DNA of 64,000 nt. It comes from Xiphias gladius (taxonomy: Eukaryota; Chordata; Actinopteri; Istiophoriformes; Xiphiidae). Below the pieces are notes generated by a model. That model worked only from the letters and a program-made list of their open reading frames with translations, ran no database searches and was not told where the DNA came from. The translations under genes were made by a program, and so were the position numbers. The stretch is taken from contig NC_053414.1 of NCBI RefSeq assembly GCF_016859285.1, forward strand, positions 8,630,517-8,694,516. The letters are read 5' to 3'. Positions 1,030 to 63,018 of the stretch are shown piece by piece. Within the stretch, counting starts at the first letter, position 1, and each line of letters begins with the position of its first letter.

Positions 1030-4000
1030 GTTATAGACACTTTGTCCATCCTGTCTCATTCGTCCATTGCGATACAAAGAGGACTCCAGTAAGTACTTTC
1101 CTTCCTCTGTTTCATAAATGAGGTGTTAAATCATCCTTGTTGGGCAACACTTTACTTTATCCCCTCCTCTTTAGCATTTATGAGCACGATATAAACATTT
1201 AATAAATGTTTTAAAACACACTATAATGTTGTTGGAAAATTTAGGAAATTTTAAATGTTTATGAACATATAGTTTTTATCAGCAGTTAAACTTTCTTCTA
1301 CGAAGACATATTTTATATTATTAGAACTGAGTTTTATTGTCATTCCTAATCTGTTTATCCACTTGTGGGTGTCCACCGGAGGAGTTATAGTTGTTGACAA
1401 ATACTTAAGTACTTACAACTGTATTATTGTGAGTAACAAACCATTTATTAAATGTTTATATGCTGCTTCAATGCTAAATAGGGCAGGGTTAATGTAACAG
1501 AAGTAGTATAACATAATTAATCACTTGATAAGCGTATTCATGATATTGTCATCCTCACCACAACCTTCCTCCTTTACTGCCGCGCTTACAAACACACACT
1601 CACGCACAGTTTTCCTCCCCTAGGCCTTTTCCTTTGGAAGGGTGTGCTCCTGATGACGAGATCTACAGCGGCCTGTCTGACCAGATAGAGTGAGCCATTT
1701 TTCTCAAAAATGTTATGATGATAAACTTGCTCTGTTACTGTACATAGTTACACCAATGATTCATCCTCCCCCGTACAGAGTGTCCGCTTGCAGTGTCTTT
1801 TCCAAGCACAGTGCATGTCAGCTGCAAGTGAGGGATACACGAATGAGTTTTGTTGTGCAAATTTAAATTCAAAAACAGTTATTAAGCAAGATTTTTCCGA
1901 TTAATCATATGCATCTCGGCCTTTTCTCAGCGTCTGTTTTTACATTTGCGGTTCCCTATAGGGATATTAAGGCAAGACAACGCTTAGAGTGGTAACAATG
2001 CTCTGTGTGTGCGTGTGTGTGTGCGCGCGTGTGTGTTATGTGTTTCAGTGACACAGTGGATGAGGATGACGACTTATACGACTTTGTGGAGGATGAGGAG
2101 AACGAAGGGGATGAGATCTATGAGGACTTGATGCGGACGGATGAACAACCTGAAGCTGTGAGTGGCTCACATGCAACATTATTCCTCAAACAAACAGGAA
2201 GGTTCGGGCTGTCTTGGCAGACGAGCTGTTAAGGTCTGTCATTGATATGTACAGTGGACTACAGTCTAGATGGTTGCCACGCATATCAAACATGTATAAA
2301 ATCCAGAGTCCTGTTTGCGCACGATCATGTAGACAAGAAATTTGATGGTGGAAGGCTGAAAGAAAACAGGACTGTTCTACAAGCCTGCCTGTTTACTTGC
2401 AAGATACAAGTTAGAACAAATTTCAGTGCTACAAATTGTGTCCGTAATGATCGAAATAAATGAATCACACCTCACCTCACATTTTTTGTGTGTGTTTATG
2501 CGGCAGCAGAAGACAGGCGTAGACAAACGAGAGTGCTGCCTGCAGGAGATCAGACAGACAGAAGAGAAATACTCCGATACACTGGAATCTATATTACAGG
2601 TGGGTACACATCCTCAGACTGACCTAAGAAGATCCTGGCATCCATGCAGATCATACACAGACAAGCGTTCAAATGGACATTCATATGTACATTTAAAGAC
2701 AAATGAACAAACATCCCTTCTCTTTTGAGCAGCACTTTATGAAACCTCTTGAAAGGTTTCTGCAGGAACAAGACATTGAGAGTATCTTCATCAACATAGA
2801 GGTACAGTAGCAGATTATCCATACACCCGGTCAAGTTTACAGGTTTAACGTCACGTATTGGCCGTGTTTACATGTTTTCTGTGAATGTGTGTATGTAGGA
2901 GTTGGCCAACACCCATCGTAATTTGTTGGAGGAGGTCCGGAGCTCCATCCTAAATTATGGAGCGAAAAATCTCTACCAGGTTTTTCTCAGCTACAAGGAG
3001 AGGTACACAACACACACACCCACACGCGCATATTTTTTCTGTTATACAGTAACACTAGAGATACATGTATATTATAATACGTTTTTTATATCCTTAACCC
3101 CCTCAGGCTCTTACTGTATGGTCGCTACTGTAGTCAGGTGGAAACGGCGACGAAACACCTCGACAAGCTTTCAAACATGAGGGAGGACATCAGGATGAAA
3201 CTGGAGGTGAGAAAGACACACACTTTCAAAGGCAGAAGCACTTGTGGGGTTTTTGCAATGAAAAGTAAAATTTTGACAGATGTTCTGAAAATTTTCAGAT
3301 GTTCTGAAAATTTTCACAGATGTAAGTGACACATTATGAGCATATGATGTTTACTGGATTTCTTAATAAGGGCACAAGGATGTTTTGTATAGTTTAAGGT
3401 GCAATTTTATGCCACTTCAGTCTGAACTGAAGGTAGAGTGGCTGAAGTCAGCCCAGAGTAGCTTGGCCCCATTGAGCACAGTGGACAGTGTCCGGTGCTG
3501 GGAAGCCCGAGAGGGTTTTTATACTTTCGCCGTTCTGTTTAAAATGTGGCTTGTAATTACTGTAGCGTTTTTAGTAGCTTTAAACTGCCTTTTGTTATTT
3601 TTAACTTGATGCATGTATCAAGAGAGGTGGATACAGTCAGCAGAGTCAGACTTTCTGCCACTTTTTCGCCAGTGGCCAACTGTGGTACTACAACAAGTAA
3701 TTTCTTTGTTAGCTCAGCTTTGTACGGCACACCAGGTCATTTGTTGCACTTTTTCTTCAGATATTTTAAACCACAAAGATTTAATAGTTGTAAAACTTTG
3801 CCGGAGCCTAGGCGAGCTATTTTTTTGAGTGTGATTATGGGATGATTCAGCAGCTTTTGGAAAAGACATACTGATGCACATGTTGAGTCATGGGCTAACA
3901 CAATCCAGAAACAAACCAGGAAGAGAGAAAACATTTGTGGCGTATGTGCTGGCTGTGTAACTTTCACACAAATGAAGGAAAGCCATTATTGACCATGGTG

Positions 4001-34926: not shown

Positions 34927-37740
34927 ATGCTCACTCTTTCAACTCCAGTCCCTCTCTGCCTGAGTCTCCTCCTCTTTCTGTCATACCACTCCCCTGTCCT
35001 CTCCTGTCAGACTGGGACCCGCAGCCAGTGTGTGTCCGCTCCCTTCGTACCAGGTTACAACCTGGCTGGGGAGGGCTTCGATGTGGTCACCCTGCGACGG
35101 AAAGGAGCCTACACGGTCGACGTGAGGACCTACCTCACCCCAGAAGGCACCTGTACTCTCTGCTCCAACCCTCTTCAAGGCAACAGGCTGCAGAAAGTAA
35201 TTTATTGTCAGAGAAGCAAAAAGGCAAATTTAAACATACAGCAGCAAATTGTTATATTGTTTGCATGTTAACCGTGGTGGTCTTTATTTTCACCTTTACT
35301 TTCAGCTGCCAGTCTCTGCAGTGGACTGGCGTGTATTCACCCACTGCAGTACTAATCTCTACAGCAGTGCTCACACCTCTGTCAGGTATTCTGTGATATA
35401 GAATCGAAAATACTCATAGTGTTGTGAGCATTTTCATATTTTAGTTTTTTTTTTGGTTTGTTTTATTCCAGTGCCCTAACACAGATCAGTCAATACTTCC
35501 TAACATGCACCCATCTTTACTGCGCTTTGAAATAGTGATTGATCAAAAAATCTTTAAATAGATCATCTTTAAATCTAATTCTTCGAATGCTAGTGTTATT
35601 GCTACATCAGTGTCTCTGGATGATGACTACCATCCAAATTCCAACAGTGGAAATTAACTAAGTACATTTACTCAAGTACTGTACTTGAGTACAATTTTAA
35701 GGTACTTTTACTTCTATTCCATTACATTTTGGGGGCAAATATTGCACTTTTTACTTCACTATTCTGGTTACTTTGCAGATTCAGATTATAAATACAAAAT
35801 ATAATTCATATTATGATGTAAATATTATGATGTATTCACAGCACAGCAAATTTTCCCCCATGGGCCCTTTAACAGGTTAATCACGCCGTGTATCATTATA
35901 TATTTAACTACCCAGCAGTATAAAGTAGTTAAAATGAGCCCCTCCCTTACCAGCTGCAACTTTTAAGTGAAATTGCATCAATACAAGATAATGCAATAAT
36001 ATAATATTCTGAACTGGGCTGCTCTGCATAATGAGTACTTTTGATAATTAAAGAATATTTTGAAGCTAATTCTTTTGTACTTTTAATCGAGTAAAATTTT
36101 GTATGCATGACTTTTTACTCTTAACAGAGTACTTATACACTGTGGTATGGCAACTTTTACTTAAGTAAAAGATGAGAGTTCTTCTTCCCACACTGTCAAT
36201 TTCTCACGTATAACATTAGCAGTGCTAGGACAAGTGACCTTTATGTTTTGAAAACTCAACTCAGTATCTTATGGCTCCACATAGTCAGCTCCCCATTCAT
36301 TGTTTATATTCTAGGATCTGATTTTAAATCACAAGCTTAAAAGTGTTTCATGGTATTTCATGTTACTATGTCCACAGCTCACTGCTTCGGACATACACCA
36401 ACCAGGAAAGCAGCAGCTGGAAGGTATGTAACACTACCTAGAGTTACCTAATTGCACGCAGTTTTATTTTTATTTGCTGAGGTGTCAAGACTTCAGTCAA
36501 TGAAACTTCTGCTGCCAGTAAAATAACGGGAAATGGTGCTGAATGCACTGACAACCTAAATCTAAACAAGACGAAGAGTCTACAGCCATGCTACGTGGCT
36601 CTGGCAGGCTGTGCTTCAGCACAGGGGTGGTCTGAGCTAAATGCTAACTTCAGAATGCTAATATGCTCACAATAACAACGTTAATAAGCTGATGTTTCTT
36701 TTATGTAGTTTAGCTTCTTAGCATAATTACCACAGATATAATGTGCAGCTGAAGCTGATGGGGACATCATTAGTTTTGCAGGTATTTGGTCATAAACCAA
36801 AATATTGGAAAAGTTAAAATTTTGACCTGCTGATGGCGCTAGAGGAAATGTCAAGGGATCACCAAAGTCAGTAGGATTCATCCTGCAGGGAGCATCAAAC
36901 AAATTTCAGTGCAATCCATCCCACAGTTTTTGAGATATTTTATTGAAAACCACCACTATATACTTGCTGGTGGTGCTAGTGTATGTCTGTCCAAATTCCA
37001 TGGCAATCCATCCAATAGTTGTCAGTATATTCCAGTCTGGCCCAAAGTGGTGGACCAACCAGCCAACAATGCCACCCCTGGACCCGCAGCTCTAGTGTGG
37101 CTATTATCTCAACAGCAATAGAGTTAGAGTGAATGATCAAAGCACTAAAAACAAAATTATTGCTGTATTGTCAGCACTGTATGGCAGTGAAGGTCAATGA
37201 CGACAAGGTGGATGGCAGCAAAAATCTCACATAACTCCTAATCAGATAAAACCAAAACTCTGAAAATAAACCTTTATGGTGATTTGGCTAAAATGACCCC
37301 TTAATATATTGCATCGTGGTTGTTTCATTTGGACACCAAAGAGCTCATGCCCTGATTTTTTTTTACAGCTGGGACTAGATTTGAAGAAGTTTAGCAGCCT
37401 GCAGGTCGGGGGAACACGTTCCAGTGCATATAACTTTGCTACAGCCAGGAGCCGAGAGGACCGCTACACCTTCAGCACACACAGGACGACCTGTAGCCGT
37501 TACAGGTGGGGTGTAAACCCGCATCCCCGCAGAGTGTCATATTTATCGTCTAAGTTTGCACACGCAGGTAATTTATTATGCCGTCTTTTTGCATTTAGGT
37601 ACCGTGTGTCAAACAGACCGCCCCTCAGCTCTGGGTTCAGAAGGGATGTGGAAAGGCTGCCCAAATCCTACAGCTACTCATACAGGCCCCAGTACAGACG
37701 GCTGATAGAGACCTACGGCACACATTATATCCGCCAGGTT

Positions 37741-37814
<74 letters not shown>

Positions 37815-40015
37815 TACACACACACACACACACACAGACACACACACACATCAGTTTCATTGTCTTACTTCGCGCGAATAAATGAAACCATATTTCTTTG
37901 TGTAACAACATTTTATTGTCTGTGATTTTAGGTTTATCTTGGGGGGCGATTCAGGCGAGTCACAGCTACACGTACATGTTTGTCCAGACTGAATGGCCTC
38001 TCCTCGTACCAGGTATGTGTAACACATATCTACGGAAGGCAGTAAACACACATTCATAAACTCTGTACCAAAAACAACATCTAATATCCCCTCTTGTCAC
38101 CTAGGTGCACAGATGCATATCACTGGGTCTCACTGTAGGCCTGGGGAAGGCAAAACTGCGCGCTGGTCACAACACCTGCACCAAAGTCCTACAGAACCAG
38201 GATGTCGCTTCCTCATACAGCTCTGGACTTCACCAGCATTACACAGAGGTGGTAGGAGGCACAGGTTGGGGGGGGGCTGTTGCACTCACCCATAACAACT
38301 CCCTGGGCTACCGAAATTGGCTGAAAACCCTCAAGGATGTCCCTGGCGTTGTTGGGTATTCCCTAAGACCACTGCACGAGCTGCTGTCAGACTGGAGACA
38401 AAAGCTGGCACTGAAGGCTGCCATAGAGCAGTACTTAAAAGACAACGCCATCAGGAGGTCAACCAGACAACCATACTGCCGCAGTTACCCTAACCTGGAT
38501 TTCAGGTGCTGTCCTGAAAGGGCCTGGAGGGGAACACTGGTGGTGACCATTGTCCGAGCGTGGCGTCTAAAAGGAGATTTTTGGGGCAAGACTGAGGGGT
38601 ACGTAGAGAACAAGTCAAAATACAGAGAGAGGGCAGGGTAAACGTGATGCAAATACTGATACAGTTATTTGCTTTGCCATGTTTTCCATCTCACAGGTAT
38701 GCCAAAATGTGGTACGGCTCCATCTACCGCAAGACCCGTGTGATCCAATCGAACTACCCTCGCTGGAACGCACGTTACTATCTGGGCAATGTCAGTACTA
38801 ATCTTCTTGTCACAGATCAGCTTCCAAATTTCTCCTCTGACAGTAAAAAGAAATCATTTTAATTCCACATGCAACCTCAAAAACCACTGAGGTCTAAATG
38901 ATTTTTTTAAAGGAATAGTTTGACGTTTTGGGAAATATGCTTATTTGATTTCTTGCAAATAAGAGTTAGATGAAAAAAACTGATACCACTCGTATGTCTA
39001 TCCAATAAATATTAAGCTTCACTGCCCTACAAAGCCAAACCATGGTAACTATTTGGTCAAAACTGAGTTAAGGTACTTACTTTTCAACATCTTACCTAAT
39101 CATAAAAATTATTATACCATGGAATGTATGATTTCTGGGGATAAAACCAGAAAACATATAAAAACCCACCTAGTGGGTTCTGGCTAGTTGAGGCGTGGCA
39201 TAGCTCTAGTTTTTTGTTTAGCTTTTTCCTGTTTCCCTGAAAATGAAAATACATTTTGATTCCCCCAACAGCTTAGTAACTGAGATTGTTACGCAACATA
39301 AACAAGACAGTAGCTGAATCTTAAACCATAATGGAGGAAGAAAGTAACACCAGATAAACTATCGCTGCTAAAAAGCCAACGAGCCTAGCTTAGCATCAAG
39401 GCAGTAACTGCTGTCTCTGCAGCCTCTGACTGTGGTGGAATTCACATGAATTCATGTGGTTAAGCTACTTTTAATTCACATATTTAAAGGTATTTAATTA
39501 AAGATTAATTTATTAATAAATTTAAACTAGCTCATTAGTTCAAATGGACAAGGGAGCTGAAGAAGAAAAAGCTCATTTTTTTTGTAATGTTTTTCCTGCG
39601 CCTGTTAGATTGGTCAAACGTAGAGTGCAGGACTTTTGAAGTTTAGTGTGAGGTCTGTGATACCGATTAATAATCAGTAAAAAGAAAAAACAAAACATAA
39701 AATTAAGATTTTACAGCTTACGCAACTACACCCTTTTTTCTCAACTTCATTCACTGCTCTTTGCTTCTGTAAGGCAGTAAAGTCGGTAGCTTAGTGTTAA
39801 TTAGTTAGTTAGTATATAGGTGCTGGTAGACGGACTTTGTTACCTACGGACAGACCCAGACTGGCTGTTTCCCCCCGTTTTCAGTCTTTGTGCTAAGCTA
39901 AGCTAAATGGCTGGCTGTAGCTTCATATTTATCATGTAGAAATGCGAGTGGTACAGTATCAATATTTTAATGTAAATCTTGGGGGGAAAAAAAAAAAAAT
40001 AATAATAAAAAAAAA

Positions 40016-43103: not shown

Positions 43104-46100
43104 ATGCAGCTCCTCGCCTTTCTGTTGCTTTTTGTTATCACAAGAGGTAAAGAAATGTGCCCGTCACTGGACTCCGCTTGACAGCCTACACATTTTTATT
43201 TAATTGTTATTATTTGAATCTACTATAGATCTCATCATTTACTCCTTTTATTATCACTGAACTTTGTAGTGGACACATGTTTAGCTGAAACTGCTCTTTC
43301 ACCATCTGCTGCTTTTCAGTAAAGTCATAATAGTGCTGCTCTGTTGTCAACATGAAGTCGGTAAGTGAGGGTTTCTGTATACAGAGTTGAGTTATGTGGT
43401 CAACTGAATGCCCCAGCCCAAAACCTTTTTTTTTTCTTTCTTTTTTTTTTTCATGCTTCAAAAATTCTTCAAAAGCAATTATGTCAAAATGAAAAAATAC
43501 CCCTTTGGTCGAACCGTCCACAACTTGTGTCCACAAATGTCTCACTAGTTAAACTGGCTTTCGCTATAACATCACGCAGGAGATGTCAGGAGATTTATTC
43601 CTTTCACCAGCATGTTTTTCTCTTTCCTCAGATAAAACACTGGCCTCGTCGCACCGCCACTGTGGTGGAAATGTCAGCCTGGACCAAGAGCCCGCTGGTA
43701 ACGTCAGTCTCACTTTACCTGGACCTTTTACTGACACCAACAGGACCCACTCCATGAACCACCAGTCTGACAAAACCTTCTCACTATGTACCTGGACGAT
43801 AGATCTTCCCCTGGGTAGGACGGTACTTTTGAGGGTAGTGCGGTTGGAAAGTGGTTCGAGCATATCGGTGCGCTGCGTTCGGAATGAGGAAGGTCACGAT
43901 CAGGTCCTGGAGAGCCCGGGGACGGCTGTGCTCTCCGGCTGCGACAGGAACAAAGCCGCCCTCACTTGGACGGCAGCAGGACACTCCTCAAATGCAATTC
44001 AGCTGTCCTATTACGGTGAGAAAGTTAATGCAGTTACCCAGTTTCATTTATTGCGTCGGTACGGTCCACTCCTGCACTTGCACGCTGATCACGAGACTTT
44101 GATCGAATAGTCTTAATAAGATTTGGGTCAGACTTGTTTTAGACCAGGGCTTTGCTTATGTTGTTGTCTTCTGGGTGAATATGTAAGAAGTGCTATGCTG
44201 AAGAAAAAAGATCTGTTTTACGGTAAAAGACCAATGCTGTGCCTGTGGAAACACACTGTGGGAATGTATTGTTCAAAATGTGCTGTGAGCTGTAAATCTG
44301 TCAGTCGGAAAGTTCTTATCACCCTCACTGCGGTGTGGCAGACAGAGAGGTGTTGTTGTGGTTTCCACTCTGCCTCTCCTCACTCTGTACCTCTCTGTTT
44401 TTGTGTTTGTTCCTGGGCATCCAGTCCAGGAAGATGAGAGGAATTCCTCAGAGGACTACACCAGCCCACATTCAGACACCGCACGTTGGTCGCAGACAGG
44501 AACCAGCTTCACAAGCACAGCTCCTGTTAGTCCAGAGTGGCTGAGAGGGACAGAGGGGGTCAAAGGTCGCCTCTACGAAGGTCTGGAGTGGAGCCCTGGG
44601 CTTCAGTCTGTGTCTGGTCCCTCTTCTCGGGACCAGGGGCCGCTGCACCCCACTTCACCCCTGCAGGGACTCACTGTGGCTGGAAGAGCCGATAGGGAAA
44701 CTCTCGCGCTTCCTGAGGAAGCGACAAACAATGGAGCGGATACATCTGGAGCTGCTCACCTCACTGATGGTCCCATATCTGCCAGAGAGCAAACACGCCC
44801 ATATTTTCAGCATACACTCCATACCGACACATCAAACACCGCAACCACAGAAACAAACTCGAGCGATGAGCTCCCTCAAACCCAGATGGCACTTACAGAA
44901 TCAACGGCCGGTAGCTCCACCACCTTTCTTGGCACATACACATTCAAATATGCAATCAGTCACACATCTAAACACGGAGACAAACATACGCCCACACAGG
45001 CTCACCCCGCTCTGTCGAGCTCCAGTCTCCCGCCTCTCACCTCTTCTCCGCCCGAGCTACTTTCCCCGACAACCTGGGAGAGTGGTACCGTCCTAATCCC
45101 AGGTGGCGGAGCTGTTAGTGGGACACCTGGAGAGAAACAACCCCATTCCTGGAGGAGCCAGAGAAGCACAGACAGACTGAACTCTGATCTGACCTCCGCC
45201 ATCACCTCTGACCCTTTAAAATCGCCCACCGAACTTCCGCAGGATGCCTCGAGCAGTGCACGCTCTGATACTGAACCCACCGAACCATCGACATCCTCAC
45301 AGGCTCCCACCGAGTCTCGTCAGTCATCCATCACCCACATCGCAGAGCTTGACACTGCTGTTAGTACTGTGGCGGCAGGGTCATTTCATCCAAACGTAAG
45401 TCGGACGGACTCATTTGAATCTGCTGCATCAGATGTTTCCAGTCAAACTGCTGCGTTTGAGTCCTCTGATAAATTTGGCGACGCAGTAAAGCTTCGCACT
45501 CCCACTTCTTCCACACAGAGTCGAACAAACTCTCCACAGAGCACAGAGAGCCTCACACACTCTCCTTACACATCCTCTACATTCTCACAGACACAAACAA
45601 CAACGGAAATTAAACACAGGAATTTCATCGATGCATACATGACTGCAACCACTATTCCCTCCTCGTCTGTCATCAGCACAGTTGAAGACCGCACTTCAGG
45701 TTTCACAGCTTCATCTTCCACGCCCAGAGCAGCGCTGACATCGGGAGATGTCGTCCAGAGCTCGGCTGGCACAGGAGCTACCACTGAAACTTATACACTG
45801 CGTCCCACTTACACAATCATACCTGAAAACTCACCCACAAATTCCCCGACTACGGTTCCTCCTTTGCCATTCAGTACATCTCTACACCAATCAGCACCTT
45901 CACACACACTCCAAACACACACTACGGTTCCTGGTAGTTCACACTTCACTCACACACAGATGTCCTCATCCTCCTCCATCACCGAGTCCACCATGCACGA
46001 AGCCTTTGCCGACCACAAACGTGTGCCTACACCCTCGCAAGCATCAACAATTAAATCTCCGCCTTCACGCGCACCTTTGCTGTCTTCCACCGACGTCCCT

Positions 46101-49100
46101 GCTACACATAATCGGCCCCACAGCTACGTCACTACTACGCATACGTCTCTGCTCTCACTCACATCTGCAAAGTCGGATTATGGACACGGAGATAGAGAAG
46201 TAGAAGTGGAGAAAGAGGATGAGTCCTGGCAGCGGTTTTCCAGCAGCGCAACCACGCGCGCTCCCACTTCTGGCGCACCACTGCCACATCCACCCTGGAC
46301 AACCCCATATCCCAGTCAGGAGAACCCTATTGCTCTCACACCTTCTGCTTTAACCTCGGCACCCACCCGGAGCTCCACAACTAGTCAGACACCCAAGTTT
46401 TACATTGTGCCAGACCAGCCTGCAGCTGTTAGAGGTAATGTTTTTGTGTTTCCGTGTGTCATTAATGATCCAGGCCAGTTGTAATGGGATTGTTTGCTTG
46501 TTCTGTACAGTGGAGTTGATTGAGCTGCTGCTGCAGATAATTGTAGAAGAGTCCAGATCGGCTTTTACTGCTGGCCTGGAAGAAGACACGGCTGCCTGGG
46601 TGAGGGATTATGTAGACAAACACACTGGCATGCAGAAACACAATTGTAAACATGTCATTATATACTGTAATAGCTTTAGAGTTTTATGGAGTAATACAAA
46701 GTTCTTACTCCCTGTTTCTTTCAGATGGAGCCATACCTAGAGAAAGCCCCGGGGTTTAGCAGGCTGCTGGGAGTCTGGAGCAGGTGAGGTGGTGTAGAGT
46801 ACACTTGGAGCTAAGCGGCAGTCAGTCCTAGTTTGTCTCTCGCATGTATTACCATTAAATTCAAGTCCCCAAACTCAGCATTAAAATATCTGAAAAATAC
46901 ATAACCAGCAATCTTGAAAAATCCAGAGGGTTGTTTAACAACATATACTGCTATTGTGAAGGTATTTCCAGAATCCTCGAAAACTCTTGTAACTATTGGC
47001 TGCTGCACGCTGAACAAAAATACTACAAACAAAAAAAATTACACCCTTGCTCTTATGTAGCCACGCAAAAAAGTGCCTGGCTCTGGGGTTGGCGATATTG
47101 GACAGACGGTCAGTCCACCACTTTGGTCCAGATGGAAATATCCCAACAAATACTAGATGGATTTCCATGAATTTAGTTACAGATATCCACGGTGCCAAGA
47201 TGATGAATCCTAATGACTTTTGGTGATCCCCTGATTTGTCTGTGGTGCCACCACCCGGTCAAAGTTTTCACGCACTTTGTGTGATATCTCAACTTCTGTT
47301 AGATTGATTGGTACAGAATTTGGTGAAGATGCTCATGTGTTGCTTGGGATGAATAGTAATAACCTTGGTGATTCCCTTAACTTTTCATCTAGCATCTAAC
47401 AGGTCAAAATTTTAATTTGTACAATATTTTGGTTTATGACCAAATACCTGAAAAACTAACAATATTCCCAGCAGTCTCAGCTGTACTTTGTGTTTATTGC
47501 TAATTAGCAAATGTTGCCATGCTAACACACTAAACTAAGATGGTGAACACAGTGAATATTATACTATTATAACATCTTATAACAACAACATTATACTTAC
47601 TAAACAACAGCTTGTTAGAATTGTCTTTGAGACCAGTTAGCATGCTGATGTTAGCATTTAGCTCAAAGCATCTCTGTGCTTACATACAGCCTCAGAAAGC
47701 CGCCAGCATGGCTGTAGACTCTTAATATGTTTGTAAAACACTGGCAAAGCAAAGTCTTTGAGGATTCTGGAAATTCAGTGTTTTTCAAAGGTAGTGCCGG
47801 GTGCCAGGTATTTATTTTTTTGAATATTGGGTTGTTAGTTCAGTGACTGTAATAGTAGTACGTGAGGAGCAGGTACCGTGGCTAGGTAGCAGTGGGTGGT
47901 GTGAAGAACCGTGCAGAAGGTGGTTCTACTGTTCTGCTGTCCCTCCAGTGGCCATGCAGTGCAGAGTCTGGTTGAGTTTAGAACCAGCGGGGCTCTGCAG
48001 TGGCTCAGCGTGACAGGACCCACATCACTCTTGGAGCGAACAGGACTTGCTCAGGCTGTTCGCGAGGGGAGGGGATTCAGATCGTCCAGGATCACCAACA
48101 TCACACTGGGAGGTGAGCCTGTGTTGAGATACTGCTAAGGGTTCTTAACTTTTGGGGTAACCTCGTGGCCAAGTGTTTAAGGGGAGCCCAGGCAGGGACC
48201 TTTTGCTGCCGTTATCCACCTCTGACTCCTGATTTCCTGCAGTCTCTCTACTGTCGACTTCCTAATGAACTCACAAAAATTACTTAAACTGCCAGGTTTG
48301 CGGTCAGTGGCCACATTTACCTGAGAGGGAATTCCCTTCTTGACCTACTTACTTAATAAACCCAGTTACAGACAGCGTTGTGTAAAATTCGTAACTCAGT
48401 TAGATTGACTCAGTTAAACTCGTAATCCAATTATGAGAAATCTGATTAATGCGCTTGGTTTACTCTGATGAGGAATAAAGTGACCTTAGTTGGTCATATT
48501 CTTTACTGTTTGCTGGTGGAAAGATAAGGTTGAAAGGCATATTGTGTTGGTAGATAGGGATACTGCGTTGCAGTGTTTCAAATAAAACAGGTTAAACGAA
48601 AGCCGCCCAACTAAACATACTCTCTAAATTACACTAAATAGACTTCCAAAACCTACAGTATATATTTCTTATTTTATTTGCCAATTTCGGGGAACACATC
48701 CGCCATCATCTGCGAGGTGTTTCAGCTATTGTTTTAACATTGACATGCAAGCAGACACATTGAAAAGATAATGCTGATAATACTATGTTTTTTTACAGTC
48801 AACCCACCCACTGAGAAAAAAAAACAAACCAACAAAAGATTTATTCTACGAACAAGTATTTCCTCTGTAGCCAAAGCCTGATATATCAACCAATGTTATT
48901 CCTCTGTGCCACGGAGCTCCATTGTTGTCCAGCTATTGAAAACACATTAATGAGTCACACTGTTGCGCTGGGTGACAGTACTATTAATGAACATGGCCTC
49001 TGAAGTTTATTTTAAGTCAGTTCCACCTAAAGCGTCCTGCTGCCGTGAATACTTACCAGTGCACCAAATGTGTATTAATCCTCAGCTGAAAATAGTCCCC

Positions 49101-52100
49101 AACAAACGCACTATTTATTCCTGTTCGAGTAACGTTGGCTAAAAACTACAGTGCCCAGTTGTCTCTGGACATTACCTTTATTTTAAAAAAGAACAAACTA
49201 TATATTTGTGTCCTGTTTTTTTTTAAAGATTTACATCTTCAGTTGGTACGAACGGGCAGTCCCGCAGACAGGGAAGGGAATTCACAAACACAGTACAGGT
49301 CTTGGTCTTTTTGTGGGATTTGTCAACAGTGATAAAAATGTAGAATGACACCAACCTTATCCTTGAACACATCCTCCCTCCAGGTCTGCAGGGTGATGTG
49401 TGTGACTGGCTACTGCAGTGCCCAGCAGGCTACAAATGTCTGTCCCATCCTGGCACGGCAAACTATAGCTGTTTCTCGGTCTGTCGCTCTGACTACTGCC
49501 ACAACCACGGCATCTGTACGCACCATCCAGGCCAACTTCCAGTTTGCCGGTGAGAACACACACACACACACACACACACAGAGGCACACATGCTTGTATG
49601 CCAATTACGTGTCTCTTTGTCCATCCAAGACATTTTTTGTGAATTTAAGTGTCTTTATGTTTGTGTATTAGCTGCCTTGTAGGAGAGGACTTCTGGTACA
49701 TGGGTCAGAGGTGTGACGTGAGGATGACTCGAGCGCGGCTCGTCGGCGCATGTCTTGCGATCTTACTCGTCATTGTGACAGTCATCGGCATTTTGGCCTT
49801 TGTGGCAGTGCGACGCTACCGAGCCATTCTGATCCAGGCCAAAGTAGATCAGACTCGCAGCAGGTACGCACTTACTGATGAATACACATATATAATCACT
49901 GCTCACAACATACAACTTGTAATACAAATATTAATATACACAAAGCACAGTAATATAACATGCAGGATTTCTGTAGGGTTCACCTGGTTAAATTTAATAC
50001 ATTTTAATACATTTTTATAATTAAATAAAATGCAATTTAATACCCGTTCCACTGTAATACTGGCAAGAAAGTATGATGAAAAACCAAAAGGGATGATATG
50101 TTGTGCATAATGTACTGTTACAACAATCCCACTTTTAGTTCACAGCTGCATAACAATTCCCAACAGACCACAATCTAATACAAAAACATTTTATAGCTGG
50201 CATTACTGTCAGCAGGCAAGAAAAAAATATCTAAGGCTTTTATGAATTAACTTTACGACTTTTTAAATATCTTCTAAGGCCTTTTTTTCGAGGACAAATT
50301 GAATTCTTTGCTTTTTAAGGCTTTTCAAGACCTGCAAAATCCCTGTACATGAAACGTAATGATTTAAAACAATTGGAGGTTTAGAGGACGATCTAGTTAG
50401 ATCAGTCTCGACATATACTGAAAATTAGTAAAATGGTAGCCTGGGTTTTTGTGCGTAGTGAGCAGTGCAATGAGCCTCTGGTCGGACCTTTTTTAAATAT
50501 CAATATAAAGCACATGTTAACACACATATATATGGTAAACATAATAAGGAATTTGACTAAACATGATTCCAAAGGACTGATTATTTTGGTGGGAGATCAC
50601 GTGTTGTAATCTTTGAAGGGAAAAAACGCTGAGGTCGGGCATAACTGCACGTACAGTAAATGTAATTATAGTAATGTCCACTAGGTGTCATAGACTGGCT
50701 GCCGAAACACAGACTGAGGATGAGGGCTGTGCTGTAGACCGTAGACCGACTCTAAATATCCACCCTCCAGACTTGAAAGCAGCCCTCACGGACCTCAGTC
50801 ATACGCGCTCCGAGCCGTTCACTGTCATCCCACCAAGTCTGTTATGGCGCTGGGCCACAGGGGGGATAAAATGTGTTAGACAGGACTTCAGATCTCACTC
50901 ACTTAAATGGTGATGAATCAAAATGTCTCTTATCCACTGCAAATTACTTTTGTGAGCCCTTTTTAAAAGGTTGGGCCAGTCCATACCAACTCATCAGCAC
51001 CTCCCAATTAATGTCAGCGATTTTCTCTGAAAAAAATCATGTTTTTGAAGGTTTGGCCGTCAGAGCTAAATTTCATCATTTTTGATGAAGCGATTCTTTG
51101 TATGTGTATTTTAAGCAATGGGTTATTTTCTCACCGGATGGGGTTGAAATTTGAACTGAACATCCAAGAAATCCAGAGTATAATTTGCAACATGTGTTCA
51201 TGTATAATAGTTGTTGCTGAACGTTTATATGATTATATGATTACTGTAAATTATTGTAATATACAAAGAATTGCAAAAATAATGAAATTTAGCTCAGAGG
51301 GCCAAACTTTCAAAATTCACAACTAAAAAAGTGTTTGGAGTACAGCTGTAGGATTTTGCAAGGTCCCGTGAATTTAATAGAAGTTTTCACAAGAATGTTT
51401 TTGAGAAAGTCCATGACATGAACTGGGAAAAGTTGTGAATTCTGGGTGAGTTGGCATGGAATGACCCATTGGCAAAAAGATAAACCCCATTACACCAGTA
51501 AGCTTGTACATCAAAAATAAAGATTATGGCTTATAAATTGTGTGCAGCTTACATTATTTAACTGGTTGTTCTGCAATATTATCGTTGTTATCATTAATTT
51601 CCTGTCACACCCATGTTGCTATGAACGATGGATAATTTTTCTAAGCAAAGTCTGGAGAAATCTACACTCCAAGCGGACTCTGGAAGTCCGCTAAAAGTCC
51701 GCTTGAGGACCCGTGTGGACTTAATGAATTGTGGATTTGGACAGCCCTCGGCAAATGCGTTGGATTGCAGACAATTGGATTCAGCCTCTTAAAGGTGCAC
51801 TAGCCAAGATTTTTGTGTTAAAACACTTGTCATCTGAACCTAAATTGCAGAGTGGGACTGCAACAGGGAAGAGTTTATCCACCTGAACTGAGAAGCTTTC
51901 ATCCTATTTCCTAAATTAAACTTGAATATTGGGTACGGACACAGACAGACCAAGTTCACACAGGAAGTGTTAAGTCTGCAGATCTCTCGGGATTTTCCAC
52001 ACACAACAGTGTCTAGTGTTTACTCAGAATGGTGCGTAAAACAAAAAACATCCGGTGAGCAACAGTTCTGCGGGCAGACACACCTTGTTGATGAGACAAG

Positions 52101-54666
52101 TCAGATAATGGCCAGACTGGTTGGAGCAGATTGTGGAAGGCTACAGTAACAGGGATAACCGCACTTTACAACTGTGGTGAGCAGAAAAGCATCTCAGAAT
52201 GCACAACACGTGAAACCTTGAGGCGGATTGGGCACAAAAGCAGAAGACCGCGCCGTGTCAGCCAAGAGCAGAAATCTGAGGCAGACAGAAAAAAACAAAA
52301 TCAAATCAATATTTGTTGTGACCGCCCTATGCCTTATAAAACAACACCATTTCTCCTCAGTACACTTGCACCTGGCAGGTCGGTCGTTCCAAGCATCTTG
52401 GAGAACAGTTCCACAGTTCTCCTGTGGATTTAGGCTGTGTCAGTGTCTTGTGTCTCTTCATGTAATCCCAGGCTGACTCCATGGTGTGGAGATCCGGGCT
52501 CTGTGGGGGCCAGAACCATCTGTAGCAGGACTCCTTGTTCTTCTTGTCACTAAAGACCGTTCTTTATGACTCTGGCTGTATGTTTGGGACTATGTTTGGG
52601 ACTGATCAGATGTCTCCCTGACGGTATTGCTTGATGGATAAGAATTTAAACATCTACAAGCTTTGCACAGTACTGTATATATAAACAATTTTAATGCCAG
52701 TAATTCTAACTATAACCTAGGTCCAACTGAAGCAGATACAACAAATATTGTGTCCCGTGACTATTGAACTTCTCATTATGATTTGTTGTGTGTGCAGTTA
52801 TCGCAGGTTCAACCATTTTGATGAGCTGTCGGGTCGGTTCTGGCTGCGTTCGTGGGCGGGATCGGCAGACTCGATGGACAATCCTGCGTTTACGCGCTCC
52901 GATGAGTTACTGCACCTGCGGGCGCTCGACCGCCCCTGCTGCTACCACGACGACACGCTGTCCCTGGCCTCCACCTGCCCCAGCCACGGAACACACGTCA
53001 ATACAATCTACCCACACAGGTACACGCACATCCGGTGTTACACTTGAAATTGTCAGTGTGCTTCACGGCATCACAATGTTTCAATATTCTGCAGTATTTC
53101 TGCAGATGCTGGAAATGATTAAGAATGCAATTATACCATTGCTTCCAAGAAAATGTTAATTTGGAGTCTGTTGAGCAGCCAAGTAGAAATTAGTTCAATA
53201 GACATATGCACACAAAATTTTGAATTTTTATGTCACTCAAACAAAAATAAAAAAACTGATCACACTTTTTAAATCATATAGGTCGACTTAAATCATTTTA
53301 CTTAATGTATATAAGGACAGAAATTCAACAGAACTTACTTTAAACCTGCATTAAGTTGTTTTTTTGGCCACTTGTGGCAGGGAAACAAGTAAACACGACA
53401 TTGACATTTTAGCAAATGTAAAGTTTTTAATTCTAAATGGGTTAGCAAGCATTTGCTTATTAAAAATCCAGCAGAGACGGAGCATTATTAGTATTCATTT
53501 GAAGTCATGTGGGGCCAAGTGACAAATGTAAATCGGCTCTCATTTTAGCTCTCTTGTGGTCTTGTCTAACTCCCGGGGGAAATGTTTGGCTTTGTAGCTG
53601 CTAAATTGCTCCACTATCTTCACCATCTAGATGTTAACTTTGTCTCTCCAGTTAGAGCTGGGCCGGTACAGTACAGTGGGTTTATCGCTGCTTTTCTGCT
53701 AAACAGCAGCCCGTGTCTGGAACCAATGCCGATAAGAGCAGTAAGACTGAACCCAAAACAGTACAGTTGCTGGCCAGGAAATGAAAACCATAATCTGAAA
53801 GATGCTAAAAGGGCCTGTAGAGTTCAGTGGAGTGATAATTCCTTGGGGTTTTTCCATTGTCTCCAGTCCCTATCATGTTACACATTCATTTCATCCACTG
53901 TTGCTATGAAATATTGATTAGAGCAGTTTTAACTATAGGATTGAGAACTTTATTCAAATCAATGCAAATCAAACAAGTAAATGGGTAAAACAAAAATAAA
54001 AGTTTAACACATTCCAAAAACTAAATTAATGCAATAGTGACATTATAAGTCAATTGATTGATAGGTATTGCCAGTGGAATATTGTAAAAATATTGACCAC
54101 TAATCATTCTCCTAAACTTCTTGTAAAATACAGTGAATCACACAGTAAAACCCAATAATTAAGGAGTAAAACTGCATGCTTTGTCCTCTCCTAATCTTTA
54201 TCTTAAACTATTACTTCAAAATGTAAATATATGTCTATAAGCATTTACACTCATTCAGACATAGGGTTACACGGGCATTGTGTGTCTAACTAGTCCTTTG
54301 GCTCTCTGTATTACTTGTAGCTCTCAGTATGGTTGGAGGGGAAGTGAAATGAGTATGGGGGATGGTGTGTTGGACTCGGGTAAGGCCAGTGACCTCTCAG
54401 TCTGTAGCTGGCCTGTGGAACCCATTCAGTGGACTCCATTCCCGCTTCTGCAGCAACTGGCTTCCCACAGGACACCCACAGTGAGTGTTTGATTATGTGT
54501 GCCTGTGTGCGTGTATGTGTGTGTTTGAAAGAGATGTTTCTGTTTTTTGTTTTTTTTTATGTGATCGTGTGTTGTTCCCGTGTGAAACCAGGTGAGGGTT
54601 TCAAGGCCACGGTCCTACTGTGAAGGCATGGAGCTGGTAGACCTGGGGAAGAGCTGGACTGCTTGA
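43104..54666 (+). CDS. Single-pass membrane mucin with CUB-like, SEA-like and EGF-like domains
   Basis: I do not recognise this as a named gene. Exons: 43104-43146, 43632-44015, 44425-46434, 46511-46599, 46725-46783, 47949-48112, 49384-49549, 49672-49863, 52798-53019, 54321-54480, 54592-54666; 3564 nt, 1187 residues, all phases closing. The first exon encodes a signal peptide (MQLLAFLLLFVIT). Residues about 15-142 look like a CUB domain: four cysteines, CTWTIDLPLG, and ending IQLSYY. Residues 143-812, one exon, are mucin-like (Ser, Thr, Pro). Residues 813-916 resemble a SEA domain, but without the usual GSVVV self-cleavage site. Residues 917-987 are cysteine-rich with an EGF-like module (CHNHGICTHH, then CRC). 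The membrane span is about 995-1018, followed by RRYR and a 169-residue cytoplasmic tail. The layout suggests a shed or signalling surface glycoprotein; function is not known from the sequence. Confidence 0.88.
47075..47730 (+). repeat. Dispersed repeat family A, copy 4 (mucin intron)
   Basis: The longest copy: GTCCACCACTTTGGTCC, TTTGGTTTATGACCAAATACC, AGCTGTACTTTGTGTTTA, GCTAATTAGCAAATGTTG and GCATGGCTGTAGACTCTTAA. Contains imperfect internal inverted repeats; no open frame. Confidence 0.8.
48860..49260 (+). repeat. Dispersed repeat family D, copy 2 (mucin intron)
   Basis: Matches 24960-25330 (CAGCTGAAAATAGTCCCCAA etc.) with an extra insert in the first half. Confidence 0.65.
49557..49582. 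repeat. CA microsatellite at a mucin splice donor
   Basis: (CA)n starting eight bases after the exon end at 49549. Confidence 0.9.
49864..52094. other. Long mucin intron, left part
   Basis: Mostly unrecognised AT-rich sequence. Open frames up to 95 codons here show no recognised domain. Confidence 0.4.
52095..52300 (+). mobile_element. Tc1-type transposase fragment (mucin intron)
   Basis: The plus strand contains AATGGCCAGACTGGTTGGAGC, GAAGGCTACAGTAACAGGGATAACC, GAGCAGAAAAGCATCTCAGAATGC and GCACAACACGTGAAACCTTGAGGCGG. These encode the helix-turn-helix N-terminal part of a fish Tc1 transposase (ARLVGAD.. then ITALYNCGEQKSIS). It is truncated on both sides and frameshifted. Confidence 0.8.
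52301..52685 (-). mobile_element. Second, different Tc1-type remnant (mucin intron)
   Basis: Starts TGTTGTGACCGCCCTATGCCTT and ends CTTTGCACAGTACTGTATATA, the two ends of another fish Tc1 lineage. The inner block GAGATCCGGGCTCTGTGGGGGCC is antisense transposase. Internally deleted to about 380 bases and directly adjoining the preceding fragment. Confidence 0.8.
53020..54320. other. Mucin intron, 1.3 kb
   Basis: No clear element. AT-rich, with a repeat-like stretch at 53640-53880 that is not seen elsewhere in the window. Confidence 0.4.
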
Positions 54667-54748: not shown

Positions 54749-56390
54749 AATTGTGAAACAATAAGTGTAAATGTGTAAAAGCATATGTGTTTTTTGTTAA
54801 ATTGTTGCTACATTTTCCCATTTGAATCTGTTTCTGATGCTCATACTAATAGGATGTAGGATAAACGGTAAAGACTTAAAAACAAAGAGGTTGTCTAAAA
54901 GTCCATGGCTCAGAATCCTATATAATTCTTGAATAAATGTGAGTCTTACTCAGGAGATGATTACATTTACTCTATTTTTTGCTTTTTGCAGTTAAACAAA
55001 TGTAAGTCCTTGTGCATTTCAACATACTGAGCTTTCCAGTCTCAGAGGTAATCTCTTAGCAAGGAGAGTTTATTTGTATACATAAAGGTTAAAGTGCTGG
55101 ACATGATACATTAAAACATTTTGCATAAGCCGTTAAAAGATTTGTAGATTTCCCAATATGTCAAAGAATTCCTGTAAGATTCAATCAAATGCAGCAACAT
55201 AACAAGTAATGTAAATATCTTTAACCTGGATTCAAAGGTAGTCAAAGTTTGGGCAAGAATAGAATACAATAGAATAGAAGCAGTTCATTAAAACATACAC
55301 ACAGCACAAAACAACACGGACAGTGTGCAATGTGCAAAATTGAAGGAAACACCTTAACGATCCTATAATCAATATTTTTATAATAACAATGCGACTGTGT
55401 GTAATGTCAAAGGGGTCACTTGTAATGATGGAGCCCTCATAATTATCACCTGACTTCCAGCTCATTGTTTTGGTTTTTCAGCCCCCAACTTTATTGTTCT
55501 GGCTCACTCTCACCACTCCTGTAGAGTTGTTTTTTTGGCTGCAGCAGGCAGCTGTTTTCAGCAAAAAAGCTCTACAAAGCCACTGGACCCTACCTGCCCA
55601 GCAGCACACAGCCAACAAACAAATTAGCGACTAGCTGGTGAACATAGTGGCGCATTTAGCAGCTAAAGAGCCAGAAATTTCCCTCATTCGTAAATATATC
55701 GGCAGCCAGAAACATGTATCCAAATGAATGCTAATGTTGTTCCATATCTCCTAGGTGTGTAAATAAACAACTCTTTCCTAACAAGTTCACCATGTCATAT
55801 CAAGTGACCAAAAAAGCAAGATAAAAATTTGATTGTCTCAGAATTGTGCAAGGTAATTGCCTGTGGGATTAATGTCTCTCTATCCTTCCAAAATATCCTC
55901 TAGCAGATATCTTCTTACCAGACTCCCAGGAGCCCCAGAAGCCCCAGGTTGTTGCTTGTATCTAATTTAATTAATCTCAGATTCGTTTAGGAATTTACAC
56001 AGTACAACACGGTGCAAGCAAGTTGTGTCCTGCATGATTAGTCTTTCTAATCCTTTGGGCCTGCCTTAGAAATGAGCCCGGTGCCAAAATCTAAATAAGA
56101 CTTTATTGACGGTTCTAAGAAATAAGTTCTCCTTTTCCGTGTTTAGTTATGACTCTGGAAAGGGTCACAGACAGGTTTTAGACAAGTCAATAATTTATTT
56201 GGACCTAGACCATAGAAAAGTAGTAATTTTAACTCTATTGTGAAACACACAGTGCAAGGACCTGAGAAATGTTTTGATGTGTTCGCGTGTGAGTTTTATC
56301 TTGAGTATCTTGTAATATTACATTTCTAACAGTATTTCACATAGGTTGTTCCTCTCTCTTTCTCAATTGAGCACACACACACACATACAC
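54749..56390. other. Spacer after the mucin gene, left part
   Basis: No gene is recognised. Contains repeat family B copy 3 (55355-55770) and a short CA stretch at 56371-56390. Confidence 0.45.
55355..55770 (+). repeat. Dispersed repeat family B, copy 3
   Basis: TATAATCAATATTTTTATAAT, CTGCAGCAGGCAGCTGTTTTC, GCAGCTAAAGAGCCAGAAATT and GGTGTGTAAATAA in the family order. Confidence 0.7.
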
Positions 56391-57650
56391 GAGCCACACC
56401 TCCTCTCGATGTTGTGTATGAAGCTCCGCTGGAATGTGATGCCATAAATGACTGAGAAAGACTGGTAGAGAGTGAAACAGGCAGATATGTACACTGACCT
56501 CGTGTTGCACTCCTATAATTGTCCCTATCCTGGGAAACTGAATCCGGGAGTGATTGATTCGGGGGAGAGAGGAAATGTGGCATATAAAGGAAGCTAGTGA
56601 ATGTGTTTAAAAGAGAGAGAGAGTGAGAGAGAGCTAGAGATAGGGAGAGGGATGAGTGAAAAGTTGACAGAAGCTACCTGCCTGCTTCTTCCATATACGG
56701 TCTTAGTCAGAGCCGAGAGCCAGGCCTGTGAGTTTCTCTGACTGTGCGAGTGAGCAATGCAGGGAGGGAGTGCGTACATGTGTGTGCGTGTGTGTTGTAA
56801 TTCATGCTTGAGTCATGCATGCTGCCGAGTTTTGAAAATGACTTGAGAAATGGCAAGAGGGTCCAGAGGAGACAATGAGAAATTATTGCCAGGGGGGGGT
56901 GTTAAAAGTTTTCAAAAAGAAGAAATAAATCTAAAAAATAAATCTGTGAATATGGGTGACGAACACAGAAATCAAGGTGAAAAGCAACATTCATGCACGC
57001 GCACGTACACACACATACACATACACGAGCCACACCTCCTCTCGATGTTGTGTATGAAGCTCCGCTGGAATGTGATGCCATAAATGACTGAGAAAGACTG
57101 GTAGAGAGTGAAACAGGCAGATATGTACACTGACCTCGTGTTGCACTCCTATAATTGTCCCTATCCTGGGAAACTGAATCCGGGAGTGATTGATTCGGGG
57201 GAGAGAGGAAATGTGGCATATAAAGGAAGCTAGTGAATGTGTTTAAAAGAGAGAGAGAGTGAGAGAGAGCTAGAGATAGGGAGAGGGATGAGTGAAAAGT
57301 TGACAGAAGCTACCTGCCTGCTTCTTCCATATACGGTCTTAGTCAGAGCCGAGAGCCAGGCCTGTGAGTTTCTCTGACTGTGCGAGTGAGCAATGCAGGG
57401 AGGGAGTGCGTACATGTGTGTGCGTGTGTGTTGTAATTCATGCTTGAGTCATGCATGCTGCCGAGTTTTGAAAATTACTTGAGAAATGGCAAGAGTGTCA
57501 AGAGGAGACAATGAGAAATTATTGCCGGGGGGGTGTTAAAAGTTTTCAGAAAGAAGAAATAAATCTAAAAAATAAATCTGTGAATATGGGTGACGAACAC
57601 AGAAATCAAGGTGAAAAGCAACATTCATGCACGCGCACGTACACACACAC
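56391..57650. repeat. 636-bp tandem duplication
   Basis: Unit 1 begins GAGCCACACCTCCTCTCGATG at 56391; unit 2 begins with the same bases at 57027, an offset of 636. The units match almost perfectly to about 57640. Only a few differences were seen (for example AGAGGGTCCAGAGG versus AGAGTGTCAAGAGG, and a G-run of different length). Each unit ends in a CA-rich stretch near GCACGCGCACGTACACAC, which probably allowed unequal exchange. No coding content is recognised. Confidence 0.95.
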
Positions 57651-57820
57651 ACAAACACACACACGCCTTAAAAAGGGAGATTCATTCATTTCCTCAGACT
57701 GGTCACATGACCTGAGCAGTGCATTCTTCCCCCCATGTGACTTGCACGAATATCTCCTTATATGGACGTCATCCAAAGGAACTCTTAAAGGGATGGTTGT
57801 CCTTCCCTGGGTCTAAACTT

Positions 57821-60673: not shown

Positions 60674-63018
<2,345 letters not shown>

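Follow-up and report, generated by a model that had tools for sequence, protein, structure and literature searches.

Membrane mucins of the SEA type, such as MUC1, MUC3/12/17 and MUC16, are built from a Ser/Thr/Pro region, an SEA domain, a membrane span and a cytoplasmic tail, with EGF in MUC3/12/17, and GSxxV is found in many, albeit not all, of them. HEG1, a mucin-type protein of the vasculature, has EGF and a conserved tail, and IMPG2 likewise contains EGF. Zebrafish Vap, which we know by the reference entry of Kawahara, Endo and Dawid (2012) alone, is reportedly a gene of the vasculature and of erythropoiesis. In the excerpts of published papers on which our citations rest, self-cutting SEA domains have GSxxV (PMC9478142), IMPG2 possesses a pair of SEA domains, of which the second contains GSxxV (PMC9478142), MUC13 has EGF and HEG is described, in that excerpt, as being without SEA (both PMC1552070), a class I PDZ C-terminus is a feature of the MUC3/12/17 cluster (PMC9578598), and the ectodomain of ADGRG6/Gpr126 holds CUB and SEA together (PMC6954182). 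Here we describe a gene of the swordfish Xiphias gladius, located on the forward strand at 43104-54666 of a 64,000-nucleotide stretch of contig NC_053414.1 (the window, in which all positions are given), which encodes a membrane mucin with CUB, SEA and EGF-like domains and is very probably a member of the fish Vap/si:ch211-14k19.8 family.

The exon chain, rebuilt independently from splice sites, comprises 11 exons with GT-AG borders at all ten introns, spans 11.6 kilobases and contains 3564 coding nucleotides (nt) for 1187 residues, closed by a single terminal stop (Table 1). An earlier note on this DNA, made from the letters alone, had proposed one spliced frame of 11 exons and 1187 residues, and the rebuild gave the identical result. 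The product consists of a signal peptide, a CUB domain, a Ser/Thr/Pro stalk, an SEA domain, an EGF-like module, a membrane span and a tail, in this order. Composition and hydrophobicity confirmed the proposed mucin region of 670 residues from a single exon, with 43.0% Ser, Thr and Pro against 21.3% in the remaining protein and no tandem repeat at score 30, as well as the single hydrophobic span and the tail of 169 residues that it leaves. The EGF-like module of that note is present too, but its description was incomplete, since the membrane-proximal region has ten cysteines in total, in which a four-cysteine part precedes the six-cysteine EGF-like module. Exons 2 and 3 are in phase 1 at both ends and are multiples of three in length; hence the CUB and mucin regions are cassettes that could be dropped without a frame shift.

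The gene is already in the databases, under the misleading name mucin-5AC. The best protein match, the Xiphias gladius record "mucin-5AC isoform X2" (P0001), is identical to our model over its full length except for 35 CUB residues, which are absent because an optional 105-nt GT-AG intron is spliced from exon 2. Twelve of 120 listed homologues, all from a source labelled 'lgn', are encoded in full by contigs no longer than 3164-4054 bases. Their alignments cross every one of the ten junctions; one- or two-residue gaps occur, chiefly at the first and the last of these, and identity drops in the two remotest rows. These contigs are probably spliced transcripts from other fish species, although the label 'lgn' itself is undefined. 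A scan of viral contigs with the translated exon 7 region gave no match, as expected.

Relatives were collected in three protein searches, each covering a limited length range, which yielded the best 120 of 404 matches, the best 120 of 180 and all 93 matches up to E = 1; scoring in the second and third was confined to the candidates with the most shared words (7994 and 7997). Among the matches listed, the name vap stands on proteins of stickleback (P0067) and pipefish (P0139), and si:ch211-14k19.8 on many fish records. The swordfish protein matches this group across the whole SEA-EGF-membrane-tail part and falls with it in one tree, in which P0067 and P0139 group with swordfish among the teleosts. 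The tie to zebrafish Vap itself runs via record names, no zebrafish protein being among the matches listed. Thus the protein, called unnamed in the earlier note, belongs to a family recorded as vap or si:ch211-14k19.8; it is not a new kind of mucin but a genuine membrane glycoprotein of ancient origin that has received little description. Its most notable features are the almost unchanging tail, the apparent lack of a mammalian copy and the loss of the SEA serine from nearly all teleosts.

The other names among the matches listed include mucin-5AC, mucin-2, FLO11, IMPG2, MUC17, MEP1B, CSPG5 and collagen, and such unrelated names, given to one and the same gene in fishes, frogs, reptiles and birds, hide it from study. 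A gel-forming mucin of the MUC5AC/MUC2 type was rejected, as Pfam found no VWD model in 14 family members at E up to 10. The name IMPG2, carried by many records, and the shared order of SEA, EGF and membrane span might suggest a fish form or paralogue of that proteoglycan, which undergoes cleavage in the second of its SEA domains. We regard this as very unlikely: the swordfish protein has one SEA domain, without the serine, against the two described for IMPG2, and the six IMPG2-named proteins of the 93-row list whose sequence was read (P0149, P0163, P0175, P0205, P0244 and P0246) bear the Vap-family tail, so that this label does not point to a distinct family.

The 93-row list spans teleosts, bowfin, sturgeon, sharks, rays, frogs, lizards, turtles, crocodile and birds, and no mammal appears among its 75 species-labelled rows. 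One record, P0059, runs contrary to this, being listed as tilapia but labelled as ferret (Mustela) in one source; its 87% identity to swordfish indicates that it is probably mislabelled and hardly a mammalian protein. Judged by the matches listed, the family is likely, albeit not proven, to be absent from mammals, because 18 of the 93 rows have no species name and the other searches cover the best 120 of 404 and of 180 matches. Should the family truly have been lost there, mammals would illustrate naturally how a gene of the vascular surface can be done without. A tree of 40 chosen sequences was close to the species tree, with sharks and rays, frogs, sauropsids, and bowfin with teleosts as supported groups; it did not settle the placement of sturgeon, and 8 of its 37 inner branches were open. 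In the literature searched (open-licence papers only), we found no description of a CUB-SEA-EGF family. A 2006 inventory of chicken mucins left one SEA-plus-PTS (Pro/Thr/Ser) protein unassigned in the excerpt consulted (PMC1552070), and this protein might be the chicken member of the Vap-type family.

In an alignment of 14 teleosts, the mean identity of the other 13 rows to P0001 was 91% in the tail, the most conserved part, 79% in the cysteine/EGF region, 78% in the membrane span, 77% in SEA and 45% in the mucin exon, the least conserved region; the CUB mean was 61%, from 10 rows and with 35 residues missing from P0001. These means bear out the earlier view that the non-mucin exons are under constraint, and the pattern it had put forward as a test, tail and CUB conserved above the mucin exon, is the one observed. 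All 263 tail-bearing proteins carry DSGKxS (DSGKAS in 260, DSGKVS or DSGKDS in the other three), DNPxF occurs in 242 and a C-terminal SWTA in 237. A tail about 90% identical among teleosts beneath a fast-changing ectodomain points to an undescribed intracellular partner. The same figures bear on the alternative of a passive barrier or lubricating membrane mucin, whose glycosylated stalk would act by repulsion as part of the glycocalyx while the remainder is an anchor. The 43% Ser/Thr/Pro across 670 residues and the SEA-EGF-membrane layout, as in known barrier mucins, speak for it; nevertheless, we consider it improbable, as conservation is lowest in the stalk and highest in the tail, and as the shark proteins P0243 and P0246 pass from CUB to SEA without a stalk, although these are gene predictions that could be isoforms.

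The folds of the CUB and SEA regions had to be approached through relatives. Pfam returned nothing significant, and no CUB or SEA call, for the swordfish protein, and sequence searches of Pfam and PDB with it gave weak EGF matches and chance rows only. The Pfam cut-off for CUB was missed by all relatives scanned (the best, shark P0246, reached 19.3 against 21.4); among the 14 teleosts none matched CUB and three matched CUB_2 (best E 0.0017). Pfam support for CUB and SEA comes from the shark, ray and sauropsid relatives, with one SEA stretch per relative and one SEA-like fold in the predicted models. For the predicted fold of the Lates orthologue, the structural list was led by a CUB structure, and the CUB part took up the whole match list when the 1156-residue model was looked up. 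With the C-terminal model, a wrasse orthologue fold, Foldseek gave mostly ferredoxin-like folds, none with E <= 0.001, and re-scoring of these matches with an aligner ranked SEA domains at the top. The check by Pfam that the earlier note had suggested gave no support from the swordfish protein alone; support comes from its relatives and from predicted structures, which favour the presence of CUB and SEA folds that escape Pfam in teleosts.

The CUB region was present in 94 of 120 listed proteins by blastp, and several of the 26 without it resemble truncated models. In cod and burbot (P0095, P0096) and eight pipefishes and seahorses (P0102, P0104, P0107, P0108, P0110, P0113, P0114, P0119), the N-terminus runs directly into the mucin region; a natural deletion of the CUB exon is possible, although all ten proteins are predicted from gene models and may represent isoforms. 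Nerophis pipefishes retain the exon. A prediction artefact, pseudogene or chance frame might be suspected from the inconsistent automatic names and the Pfam result for the swordfish protein, yet this reading, to which we give practically no probability, is already refuted by the relatives throughout jawed vertebrates, the same tail motif in 260 of 263 proteins and the transcript-sized contigs with the full frame. That the gene is real, as the earlier note held, follows from its constrained exons and its family.

At the place where self-cutting SEA domains have GSxxV, the swordfish protein reads GHAVQ, and GHA-VQ is common to 91 rows. In our alignment, in which sequences were added to a fixed frame and single rows may be misplaced, GS occupies the cleavage place in 90 of 263 proteins, 88 of them with ids of at least P0159 (birds, turtle, lizards, sharks, rays and sturgeon), and the only two teleosts are Mugilogobius (P0098) and Albula (P0142). 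The cleavage serine is present in all four sharks and rays and in most sauropsids, and is gone from nearly all teleosts. Exact GSVVV occurs in four rows, including Anolis (P0250), most birds having GSVVL instead; crocodile and turtle P0173 show GG, the named frogs AGAAL, AGTVV or SDRTL, and 16 rows have no letters there. The most economical reading of these sequences would be an ancestral serine with losses in bowfin plus teleosts, in frogs and among a small number of sauropsids. We consider the swordfish SEA domain probably uncleaved. Alternatively, furin or another protease may still cleave it, releasing the head, in the loop at which furin cuts the SEA domain of human GPR126 (PMC6954182, excerpt); the swordfish loop, LLGVWSSGHAVQ, has no basic furin-type site, and we find this unlikely. 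Since the family has members with and without this single serine, it opens the purpose of SEA self-cleavage to direct testing.

The best overall explanation, which we hold to be reasonably probable, is a type I membrane glycoprotein of the Vap family that acts as a vascular receptor with tail signalling. In the excerpts consulted, zebrafish si:ch211-14k19.8 is named within a blood-vasculature gene set (PMC11968557) and stands among iridophore-enriched genes in a table (PMC3706446). Judging from its anatomy, the protein is likely an uncleaved endothelial mucin-type receptor that signals through its tail. The mucin stalk would keep the CUB head off the membrane on vascular (endothelial) cells and on some others. 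The SEA domain, presumably unable to cut itself, would preserve the covalent link of head and stalk to the membrane, whereby ligand binding or shear may be relayed to the tail with no shedding of the head. The mostly disordered tail would recruit cytosolic partners via short motifs, and its level may be limited by DSGKAS phosphorylation and beta-TrCP ubiquitination. DSGxxS is a phosphorylation-dependent degron in the growth-hormone and prolactin receptors in the excerpt of PMC7444064, whose reference list includes a beta-TrCP paper on the erythropoietin receptor.

Unrelated beta folds score close behind the CUB structures, although the CUB region has the beta-sandwich fold and the four cysteines, and the DSGxxS motif alone is weak evidence because it arose by chance in 258 of 20000 trials with a shuffled tail; it is conservation that matters instead. 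Taken separately, we think a vascular role fairly probable, lean only slightly towards tail signalling, and treat DSGKAS as a putative degron of rather doubtful standing. A wider scenario can be offered tentatively: a misnamed membrane mucin family as old as jawed vertebrates and absent from mammals may have started with a self-cutting SEA domain and a sheddable CUB head, and loss of the serine in bowfin and teleosts, and separately in frogs, may have turned it into a permanently tethered receptor with the same tail and its beta-TrCP switch.

Table 1. Exons and further features of the swordfish gene, in window coordinates
Feature	Position	Strand	Content
Exon 1	43104..43146	+	Start codon and signal peptide, residues 1-14
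Exon 2	43632..44015	+	CUB domain, residues 15-142; 384 nt; phase 1-1; four Cys (25, 67, 96, 118)
Optional intron within CUB exon	43698..43802	+	105 nt, GT-AG; removed in record isoform X2
Exon 3	44425..46434	+	Mucin (Ser/Thr/Pro) region, residues 143-812; 2010 nt; phase 1-1
Exon 4	46511..46599	+	SEA domain start; fold taken from wrasse orthologue model
Exon 5	46725..46783	+	SEA domain; fold taken from wrasse orthologue model
Exon 6	47949..48112	+	SEA domain end; fold taken from wrasse orthologue model
Gly-His at SEA self-cleavage position	47950..47955	+	Gly-Ser in sharks, rays and most sauropsids
Exon 7	49384..49549	+	Cysteine-rich region, then EGF-like module (initial part)
Exon 8	49672..49863	+	EGF-like module end, membrane span (~residues 998-1018), tail start
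Exon 9	52798..53019	+	Cytoplasmic tail; DNPAF and CCYHDD
Exon 10	54321..54480	+	Cytoplasmic tail
DSGKAS motif, residues 1128-1133	54373..54390	+	DSGxxS degron type; motif class per PMC7444064 (excerpt)
Exon 11	54592..54666	+	Tail end, C-terminus SWTA, stop

Besides this gene, the window carries a MACPF/perforin-like gene directly upstream (37297-38638, perhaps from 34920) and an actin gene downstream (~60890-63015), both on the forward strand. The same neighbours look to be present in other fish; Symphorus P0006 (Pfam MACPF) is an apparent fusion of the upstream neighbour with a Vap-type homologue, and turbot P0109 (Pfam actin) one of the downstream neighbour with such a homologue. Further upstream, vav-like exons lie at 1996-2229 and 2360-2725 (forward strand), the first matching proto-oncogene vav in PDB (E 1.6e-7); they probably belong to vav1. 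Between the mucin gene and actin, 56372-57660 holds a recent duplication, in which 300 bases are identical (56372-56671 and 57008-57307) and a second pair of 134 bases (56893-57026 and 57527-57660) is 97% identical.

Compared with the known systems, the swordfish protein has the Ser/Thr/Pro region, SEA domain and membrane span of an SEA-type membrane mucin, and, like MUC1, MUC3/12/17, MUC13 and MUC16, it ends in a cytoplasmic tail. It differs from them in that the Vap family has an N-terminal CUB domain and a tail of its own, and in that nearly all teleost Vap-type proteins lack the self-cleavage serine. By the usual motif rule, its C-terminus, SWTA, is not of the PDZ class I type. The earlier note was right that the layout is unlike MUC3/12/17, IMPG and HEG1. 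IMPG2 resembles it in being membrane-bound with SEA beside EGF, but is set apart, by description, by its second SEA domain and GSxxV; HEG1, with the features given at the outset, is alike in outline but differs, again by description, from a family that possesses SEA. The ADGRG6/Gpr126 structure was the first row for the SEA model and the third for the full model, yet Gpr126 is a seven-span G protein-coupled receptor with a GAIN domain and no mucin stalk of the Vap type, whereas the swordfish protein crosses the membrane once.
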